64,000 nucleotides of DNA from Candidatus Sulfotelmatobacter sp. (GTDB lineage Bacteria > Vulcanimicrobiota > Vulcanimicrobiia > Vulcanimicrobiales > Vulcanimicrobiaceae). The position numbers were made by a program, and so were the translations under genes. Below, in pieces: positions 890 through 51,159 of this stretch. The notes beneath the pieces are model-generated. The model was not told the origin of the DNA, did no database searches, and saw only the letters and a program-made list of their open reading frames with translations. The first letter of the stretch is position 1; every line of letters starts with the position of its first letter. The stretch lies in assembly GCA_035504415.1 (NCBI GenBank), contig DATJRY010000011.1, positions 186,001 through 250,000 of the forward strand, given 5' to 3'.

Positions 890-4453
<3,564 letters not shown>

Positions 4454-4539
4454 CCGCCGTTTTGCCCGGCCAGCCAGTTCGCGCGCGCCGTTCCCGGGCC
4501 GCCCTGGAGCCGATTCGCGGTCCTGCCGATACCACAGAG

Positions 4540-5808
4540 GTGACGACCGGGAGGGACTATCAGCTCCGGTGCTGCGCCTGCGCGGCCGCGATCGAGGACG
4601 ACGGCGTCGTGCTCGACTGCCCGCACGCGCACGGGCCCGCCCTCCTGCGGACCGTCTACCAGCGCGCGTTCGCGGTCGACGACGTCCCCTCGCTCCTGCG
4701 CTACGGCCGCTGGCTGCCGCGCGGGCGCGCCCTGGCGACGTTCGCCCGCAGCACGGTCTATCAGAGCACCGGCTTGGCCGCCCACCTCGGGCTCGCGAAC
4801 CTGTGGATCGCCTTCAGCGGCTGGTGGCCGCAGCGCGGCGCGACCCTCGAGACGACGACCTTCAAGGAGCTCGAGGCCTACGCGGTCCTCGGCCGGCTGG
4901 CGCGCGACGAGCAGCGCACGCTGGTCATCTCCTCTGCCGGCAACACCGCGGCCGCCTTCGCCCGGGCGGCGACCGAGCTGGACGCCCCGGTCCTGATCGT
5001 CATCCCCGGCGACGCCTGGGAACGGCTGGCGGCGCTGGTCCGGATCGGACCGAGCGTGCGGGTCGTCGCGGTCGACGGCGGCCAGTACGAGGACGCCATC
5101 GCGCTGGCGCGCGGCCTGGCCGAGGAGGACGGCTACGTCCTCGAGGGCGGGGTGCGCAACGTCGGCCGCCGCGACGGAATGGGCACCGCGATGCTCGAGG
5201 CCGTCGAAGCGATGGGCACGCTCCCGGACGCCTACTTCCAGGGCGTCGGCAGCGGAGCGGGCGCGCTGGCCGCCCACGAGGCCGCCCTCCGACTGATCGC
5301 CGACGGCCGTTTCGGGACCCGGCTGCCGCGCCTGATGCTCAGCCAGAACGCACCCTTCACCCCGATTCACGACGCCTGGGTCGGCCGCAGCGCGACGCTC
5401 GACGAGCGCAGCCCGCTGGTCGCCCGCGAGCAAGTGCGCCGCATCGCCGCCTCGGTGCTCTCCAACGTCGCCCCGCCGTACGCGACGATCGGCGGCGTGC
5501 GCGACGCGCTGGCCGAGAGCGGCGGCACGACCTACGCCATCGCCAACGCGGAAGTGCGCGCGGCGATGCGGATGTTCGAAGACCTCGAAGGGATGGACGT
5601 CGAACCGGCCGCCGGCGTGACCCTCGCCTCGCTGGTGCGCGCGGTGCGCGCCGGCGAGATCGGTCCCCGCGAGCGCATTCTCGTGCACGTCACCGGCGGC
5701 GGCGCGCGCCGGCGCGAACCGGTGCGGGTCGAACAGCGCCCGACCTACGTCGTTGCACGCGACACGCAGGGCGCCTTCCCGGCGCTGACCGAGCTGCTCT
5801 CCGCTTAA
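4540..5808 (+). CDS. Threonine-synthase-like PLP enzyme, probable cysteate synthase
   Basis: A 422-residue fold-type II PLP enzyme. N-terminal cysteines C11, C14 and C27 resemble the zinc-knuckle start of threonine synthase relatives. K109 in TTTFKELEA is the expected PLP lysine and SSAGNT (131-136) the phosphate-binding loop. Several stretches match my memory of archaeal cysteate synthase rather than threonine synthase: FSGWWPQRGA, EGGVRNVGRRDGMGTAML, YFQGVGSG, RFGTRLPRLMLSQN and NVAPPYATIGGVRDAL. Cysteate synthase converts O-phosphoserine and sulfite to L-cysteate, a coenzyme M precursor in methanogens. The GTG start at 4540 follows the mfd stop by 86 bases. Threonine synthase is the fallback identity. 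No other coenzyme M gene is adjacent. Confidence 0.72.
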   Translation: MTTGRDYQLRCCACAAAIEDDGVVLDCPHAHGPALLRTVYQRAFAVDDVPSLLRYGRWLPRGRALATFARSTVYQSTGLAAHLGLANLWIAFSGWWPQRGATLETTTFKELEAYAVLGRLARDEQRTLVISSAGNTAAAFARAATELDAPVLIVIPGDAWERLAALVRIGPSVRVVAVDGGQYEDAIALARGLAEEDGYVLEGGVRNVGRRDGMGTAMLEAVEAMGTLPDAYFQGVGSGAGALAAHEAALRLIADGRFGTRLPRLMLSQNAPFTPIHDAWVGRSATLDERSPLVAREQVRRIAASVLSNVAPPYATIGGVRDALAESGGTTYAIANAEVRAAMRMFEDLEGMDVEPAAGVTLASLVRAVRAGEIGPRERILVHVTGGGARRREPVRVEQRPTYVVARDTQGAFPALTELLSA

Positions 5809-49950: not shown

Positions 49951-51159
49951 GTGACTCGTCCCCTGCTGGCCGCGGCCCTGCTCGTGGTCGCCGGCTGTTC
50001 CGCTCCCGGTCCGGCGACGCAGACCGCACCCGTCGCCGCCGACGTCGCGCGCCACGCCGCCAACGGCGCCAACGCGCTGCCGGGAAACGGCGCCAACGCG
50101 CTGCCCGGCAACGGGGCGAACGCGTTACCGGGAAACGGTGCCAACGCGCTTCCGGGCGCGCAGCTGGTGTGCGCGCCGCCGACCAGCGCCGGCAGCGCCA
50201 GCTGCACGCTCGCGATCAACGTGACGATCGCGCCCAACCCCGACCCGTCGCTCCCGCCGGCCGGCATCCCCGGCCTGCATCCGGCCGACCTGCAAGCCGC
50301 TTACGGTCTCCCGCCGAGCGCGGGCGGACTGGTCGCCGTCGTCGACGCCTACGACGACCCCGTCGCCGAGTCCGACCTCGCCGTCTACCGCACCGCCTTC
50401 GGATTGCCGGCGTGCACGAGCCAGAACGGTTGCTTCCGCAAGCTCGGTGAAAACGGTACCGCCAGCCTGCCGGCGCCGAGCACGACCTGGGCGCAAGAGA
50501 TCGCGCTCGACCTCGACATGATCTCAGCGGCCTGCCCGAACTGCACGATCGCGCTGGTCGAGGCGAACTCGTCTTCGCTCGACGACCTCGGCGCCGCCGT
50601 CGACACCGCCGCGTCGTTGCGGCCGCTCGCCATCAGCAACAGCTACTATGCCGCCGAGTGGTCCGGCGAACAGAGCGAAGACGTCCACTTCCACCACCCC
50701 GGCATCGCGATCACGGCCAGCGCCGGCGACGCGGGAACACCGTCGTATCCGGCCGTCTCGCCGTTCGTGACCGGCGTCGGCGGCACGAGCCTGCAGGGCA
50801 GCGGAACGAGTTGGACCGAGACCGCCTGGAGTTACGGCGGGCAAGGCTGCAGCGCGTACGTCGCCGCGCCGCGCTGGCAGGTCGGCTCACCGTGCGCGAC
50901 GCGCGCCGCGGTCGACGTCGCCGCCGTCGCCGATCCGCAGACCGGCGTCGCGTTCTTCTGCACCACCAGCGGCGGCTGGCTGGTGGCCGGCGGGACCAGC
51001 GTCGGCGCGCCGCTCGTCGCGGCCGGCTACGCGCTCTCCGGCCATCCGGCGGGCCCCGGCTATTCCTACCAGCGCCCAAGCGCGTTTCACGACGTCCCCC
51101 CGACGGGCATCGACCTCGTCACCGGACTCGGCTCCCCCAACGGCATCCACGGTCTCTGA
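49951..51159 (+). CDS. Sedolisin (S53)-like peptidase lipoprotein without prodomain
   Basis: A 402-residue exported peptidase. A lipobox VVAGC places the lipid at C16. Four NGANALPG repeats (residues about 38-69) form a surface linker. The S53 core holds the pair E183/D187 in WAQEIALDLDM, the oxyanion D260 in SAGDAG and the nucleophile S350 in AGGTSVGAP, with TGLGSPNG at the end. The pro-kumamolisin domain of typical sedolisins is absent, so activation must differ, or the protein may be a binding relative. GGGAG lies upstream of the GTG. It is divergent from the MalT-like regulator. Confidence 0.82.
   Translation: MTRPLLAAALLVVAGCSAPGPATQTAPVAADVARHAANGANALPGNGANALPGNGANALPGNGANALPGAQLVCAPPTSAGSASCTLAINVTIAPNPDPSLPPAGIPGLHPADLQAAYGLPPSAGGLVAVVDAYDDPVAESDLAVYRTAFGLPACTSQNGCFRKLGENGTASLPAPSTTWAQEIALDLDMISAACPNCTIALVEANSSSLDDLGAAVDTAASLRPLAISNSYYAAEWSGEQSEDVHFHHPGIAITASAGDAGTPSYPAVSPFVTGVGGTSLQGSGTSWTETAWSYGGQGCSAYVAAPRWQVGSPCATRAAVDVAAVADPQTGVAFFCTTSGGWLVAGGTSVGAPLVAAGYALSGHPAGPGYSYQRPSAFHDVPPTGIDLVTGLGSPNGIHGL
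50062..50157 (+). repeat. Four tandem 24-bp repeats encoding NGANALPG
   Basis: Units at 50062-50085, 50086-50109, 50110-50133 and 50134-50157 each encode the same eight residues. They differ at several synonymous positions, so the repeat is old and kept at the protein level. It lies just after the lipobox as a spacer. Confidence 0.85.

Follow-up and report, generated by a model that had tools for sequence, protein, structure and literature searches.

The 64,000-nucleotide stretch of DNA analysed here (the window) contains a gene that probably encodes a cysteate synthase of the archaeal/CapA2 type, an assignment that draws on a family model, a tree, structure comparison and residue conservation. 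What is new is its place in one family of Eremiobacterota, a little-known bacterial phylum, together with the missing pathway partners. Our tentative reading is that, in members of this family, the cysteate formed is turned into a sulfonate product by later steps unlike any described, because a CFAT/SulA acyltransferase, a ComDE equivalog and a coenzyme M synthase are not recognisable in the source genome (4.17 Mb, 21 contigs). The gene and its two neighbours, both named from their translations, are as follows:

890–4453, forward strand: mfd (transcription-repair coupling factor), upstream neighbour; its true start may lie further upstream
4540–5808, forward strand: cysteate synthase gene (TIGR03844 family, CapA2-like), GTG start, TAA stop, 422 amino acids
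5805–7394, reverse strand: Na+/H+ antiporter-like transporter, downstream convergent neighbour

A preliminary description of this DNA had proposed a probable cysteate synthase in a bacterium and had named TIGR03844 and Pfam PALP as the families to search. Both were matched by the translation. TIGR03844 aligned with residues 7–392 (profile positions 1–383 of 398) at 430.7 bits (E 4.5e-129), well above the curated NCBIfam equivalog cut-off of 324.9 bits, and PALP was the only Pfam family found. The protein has its fold and PLP chemistry in common with ThrC, but its scores on the threonine synthase models were all far under their cut-offs; TIGR00260, for instance, gave 42 bits where 167.1 are required. 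Among solved structures searched with phmmer, the best match was PDB 9k3c, deposited as "Cysteate synthase" (E 5.5e-97; 44% identity across 385 residues), and the next was a threonine synthase (1.7e-17). The title of the 9k3c entry identifies the protein as Alistipes finegoldii CapA2 with PLP; PDB 9k3o has the same sequence. A structure predicted from 26 alignment rows, with two plasmid-record rows left out (pLDDT 93.3, pTM 0.92), matched 9k3c with Z 54.7 and an rmsd of 2.6 over 421 residues, compared with Z 38.8 for the best threonine synthase. The window protein thus shares family, fold and the context of the PLP lysine with the Alistipes enzyme. In a tree with few, long outgroup branches and no archaeal cysteate synthases, a 97/96 branch split the cysteate synthases from ThrC and the other PALP enzymes of the source genome. 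The proposed identity held, and the protein fell outside ordinary ThrC; a position inside it would, according to the preliminary description, have been a refutation. Likeness to MA3297 of Methanosarcina acetivorans, a member of the same curated family, comes through the TIGR03844 model and not through direct sequence comparison.

Three motifs that had been singled out as characteristic of the archaeal enzymes are all present in the translation, along with the FKE and SAGNTA elements. Invariance was scored in an alignment of 28 homologues:

4825–4842, forward strand: WPQRGA motif, residues 96–101; W96 and P97 invariant
4861–4869, forward strand: FKE motif; K109 (codon 4864–4866) is the predicted PLP Schiff-base lysine; F108 and K109 invariant
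4933–4950, forward strand: SAGNTA core, residues 132–137; S132, G134, N135, T136 and A137 invariant
5146–5187, forward strand: GGVRNVGRRDGMGT motif, residues 203–216; G203, G204, N207, R210, R211, D212 and G213 invariant
5473–5496, forward strand: PPYATIGG motif, residues 312–319; P312, G318 and G319 invariant

Membership of the fold-type II family (PALP) points to K109 as the PLP lysine and, by analogy with other enzymes of this fold, the SAGNTA core probably forms the substrate/PLP-binding loop. The alignment has 41 invariant columns, including K109, S132, G134–A137 and R210–G213, and homologues tolerate minor motif variants such as WPEKGG, WPERAA and YPAIGA. Close homologue pairs gave dN/dS values of 0.07–0.13, indicating purifying selection; by a simple method, the window gene and its two nearest relatives gave 0.3–0.4. 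The three motifs are thus not chance resemblances, given the TIGR03844 match, the invariant columns and the low dN/dS of 0.07–0.13.

Could the window gene be the genome's threonine synthase? Another ThrC had been sought as a check on this, and a profile search found one (256.8 bits, cut-off 167.1) adjoining the homoserine kinase gene thrB (188.0 bits, cut-off 168.25). Given this other ThrC with its adjacent kinase gene, the window gene is not the genome's threonine synthase, nor its only ThrC-like gene. A related enzyme could nonetheless put another nucleophile on O-phosphoserine, since fold-type II enzymes vary in the nucleophile that they accept. The gene might then be a threonine synthase paralogue that uses O-phosphoserine to make a beta-substituted alanine different from cysteate, such as cysteine when sulfide is the nucleophile. 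Archaeal cysteate synthase is itself held to descend from threonine synthase, to judge from a title cited in PMC12068725. We consider such a paralogue very improbable, as the full-length match lies far over the equivalog cut-off and the predicted model agrees closely with a structure deposited as a cysteate synthase.

The likeliest activity for a cysteate synthase of this type is the conversion of O-phosphoserine and sulfite to cysteate, which would feed a sulfonate. By homology, K109 would hold PLP, O-phospho-L-serine would lose its phosphate to leave an aminoacrylate intermediate, and sulfite would add to this intermediate to yield L-cysteate; threonine would meanwhile be made by the separate ThrC kept in the genome. 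Capnocytophaga CapA and Chryseobacterium gleum Cys are reported to form cysteate from phosphoserine (PMC10191378, PMC11211663). Their reaction is the same as the one proposed here, but the window protein is instead of the archaeal/CapA2 type, and the review PMC10191378 describes the archaeal-type enzyme found in Alistipes as no more than a distant relative of CapA.

What is cysteate used for? One route leads to capnine-type sulfonolipids, whose synthesis requires the cysteate acyltransferase SulA/CFAT (PMC9304779, PMC11211663). Sulfonolipid synthesis has been described in Alistipes finegoldii (PMC9304779), the source of CapA2, which is the nearest solved homologue of the window protein; Alistipes has SulA for the next step. 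The window enzyme could in principle supply the same lipids through an acyltransferase unrelated to known CFAT/SulA or too diverged from it to be recognised. The gene is also solitary in five inspected Bacteroidota genomes; missing linkage in the window is thus no argument against this role. However, a search of the source genome for the alpha-oxoamine synthase superfamily recovered only one full-length gene, a glycine C-acetyltransferase (NF005394, 511.1 bits, cut-off 460) that in phmmer scored 391 bits against a Kbl structure and 210 against the CFAT structure 28eh. No CFAT/SulA-type acyltransferase was recognised in this search, unlike in Alistipes. Genes like this glycine C-acetyltransferase are, moreover, near-universal in the phylum, whether or not a genome has cysteate synthase, and none was found in three genomes that carry the synthase: G118 (90% complete), G092 (93%) and G122 (74%). 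Sulfonolipids of the capnine type are consequently an unlikely destination.

A second route would pass from cysteate to sulfopyruvate and sulfoacetaldehyde, and on to coenzyme M, isethionate or taurine. In Methanosarcina acetivorans, MA3297 acts in the type 2 coenzyme M route, adjoins comDE and MMP16, and is itself required for coenzyme M (PMC12068725, PMC12713407); the route needs ComDE and, mainly, MMP16 (PMC12068725). The source genome does have a decarboxylase-like gene pair at G000:C12, with a ComD-like product of 176 aa and a ComE-like one of 196 aa. Of the 8 genomes of the family that have a ComD-like gene, 7 carry cysteate synthase, as do 17 of the 91 that lack one (Fisher p 1.6e-4); the co-occurrence within the genus is 4/6 versus 0/5 (p 0.06). 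Neither relatedness nor genome size is taken into account in the Fisher test. Against this route, both subunits score below their cut-offs (ComD-like, 118.5 bits vs 147.95; ComE-like, 161.1 vs 221.5), which weakens ComDE as a partner, and the beta-like (ComE-like) protein instead matches the uncharacterised family NF004813 (287.1 bits, cut-off 240). The pair lies in a cluster (G000:C12:78536-83930; L065 4537-9931) with NAD-binding oxidoreductase-like, hydrolase-like, SsuB-, SsuC- and SsuA-like genes, a setting beside an SsuABC-like transporter that suggests uptake and breakdown. Furthermore, 17 of the 24 genomes with cysteate synthase had no ComD-like match, and the coenzyme M synthase MMP16 (TIGR03287) had no match in the source genome at 1e-5. 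In contrast to MA3297, then, the window gene has no pathway genes beside it, its genome lacks MMP16 and the ComDE-like proteins miss their cut-offs; we regard passage through sulfopyruvate by this pair as unlikely. Several related genomes likewise have ComD/ComE-like pairs in the vicinity of SsuA-like genes.

The preliminary interpretation thus held for the identity of the enzyme, but the roles that it had offered were not supported: for coenzyme M synthesis, neither a sulfopyruvate decarboxylase above cut-off nor MMP16 was found, and for capnine-type sulfonolipids, the one alpha-oxoamine synthase of full length proved to be a glycine C-acetyltransferase. Under the reading that we tentatively favour, cysteate would enter a sulfonate product other than coenzyme M by the methanogen route or capnine by a recognised CFAT/SulA; candidate classes would be a taurine-like compound, a free sulfonate pool and a building block of secondary metabolites. 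Taurine or another sulfonate is a possible product. The two PF00282 decarboxylases of the source genome are not informative for a taurine route because the family is nearly everywhere (123/149 genomes, regardless of cysteate synthase).

Archaeal-type cysteate synthases were already known from bacteria: a homologue of the archaeal enzyme has been reported in place of CapA in Alistipes and Odoribacter (PMC10191378), and the Alistipes structure is public. The bacterial occurrence put forward in the preliminary description is therefore real, but the novelty that it implied is reduced. In the phylum of the source genome, TIGR03844 was found in 24 of 149 genomes (22 over the cut-off), all in one family and spread over 10 genera; 6 of the 11 genomes of the window's own genus carry the gene. 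Among named records, the two closest relatives belong to metagenome-assembled genomes of Candidatus Eremiobacterota. Our literature search returned no paper naming both Eremiobacterota and sulfonolipids, so these data extend the archaeal-type enzyme to a phylum for which paper searches gave no sulfonolipid reports and raise the question of how this bacterium would use cysteate if it has neither coenzyme M nor capnine genes. The patchy spread, with carriers and non-carriers even inside one genus, lends itself to natural comparisons.

In the tree rooted on the ThrC/PALP side, the Bacteroidota and Streptomyces copies nest among the Eremiobacterota ones. With the root placed on long branches and only bacterial copies in the tree, we claim no direction of transfer. 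A viral sequence collection yielded no relative. TIGR03844 was found in only 6 of 296 sampled Bacteroidota genomes; five of these copies (L128, L129, L130, L131 and L132) group together, away from the Alistipes-like copies, and have no evident pathway neighbours.

The genes around the window copy have no functional link to cysteate synthase. In the genus, 7 of 11 genomes have a close orthologue of the antiporter, and these include carriers as well as non-carriers of cysteate synthase. The mfd–antiporter interval contains an unrelated gene in the congener G122 (L157), whose cysteate synthase lies on another contig, and four other genes in the congener G119, which has no cysteate synthase. Because its cargo differs among related genomes, this interval (window 4453–5808) may be a place where genes are often exchanged. 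A comparison of 23 locus neighbourhoods revealed no pathway partner conserved across genera. Recurrent neighbours of several copies in the genus, though not of the window copy, are a liv-type ABC transporter, a DUF59-like protein and an acyl-CoA carboxylase-like gene, and a SemiSWEET-like gene follows the copy in two other genera; we rejected these recurrent neighbours as partners, since they look like shared synteny. Linkage thus says little about the pathway, as neighbours vary across the family and Bacteroidota copies are solitary. An SsuA-like binding protein adjoins the cysteate synthase in G091 and lies one gene away in G092.

Two Streptomyces homologues share 46% and 41% identity with the window protein (L122, NZ_CP108366.1, 635344-668492, and L123, NZ_CP109493.1, 790487-823617, respectively), the former scoring 415 bits on TIGR03844. 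Both copies lie inside NRPS clusters on linear plasmids, adjoining MbtH-like proteins, whereas no such genes surround the window copy. These clusters may make cysteate-containing peptides, and the relatives in them suggest that the family may also feed secondary metabolism. The L122 cluster additionally contains type III PKS-like and enoyl-CoA hydratase-like genes, recalling dihydroxyphenylglycine synthesis. Elsewhere in the window, positions 49984–51159 encode a predicted protein with GANALPGN-type tandem repeats near its N-terminus.
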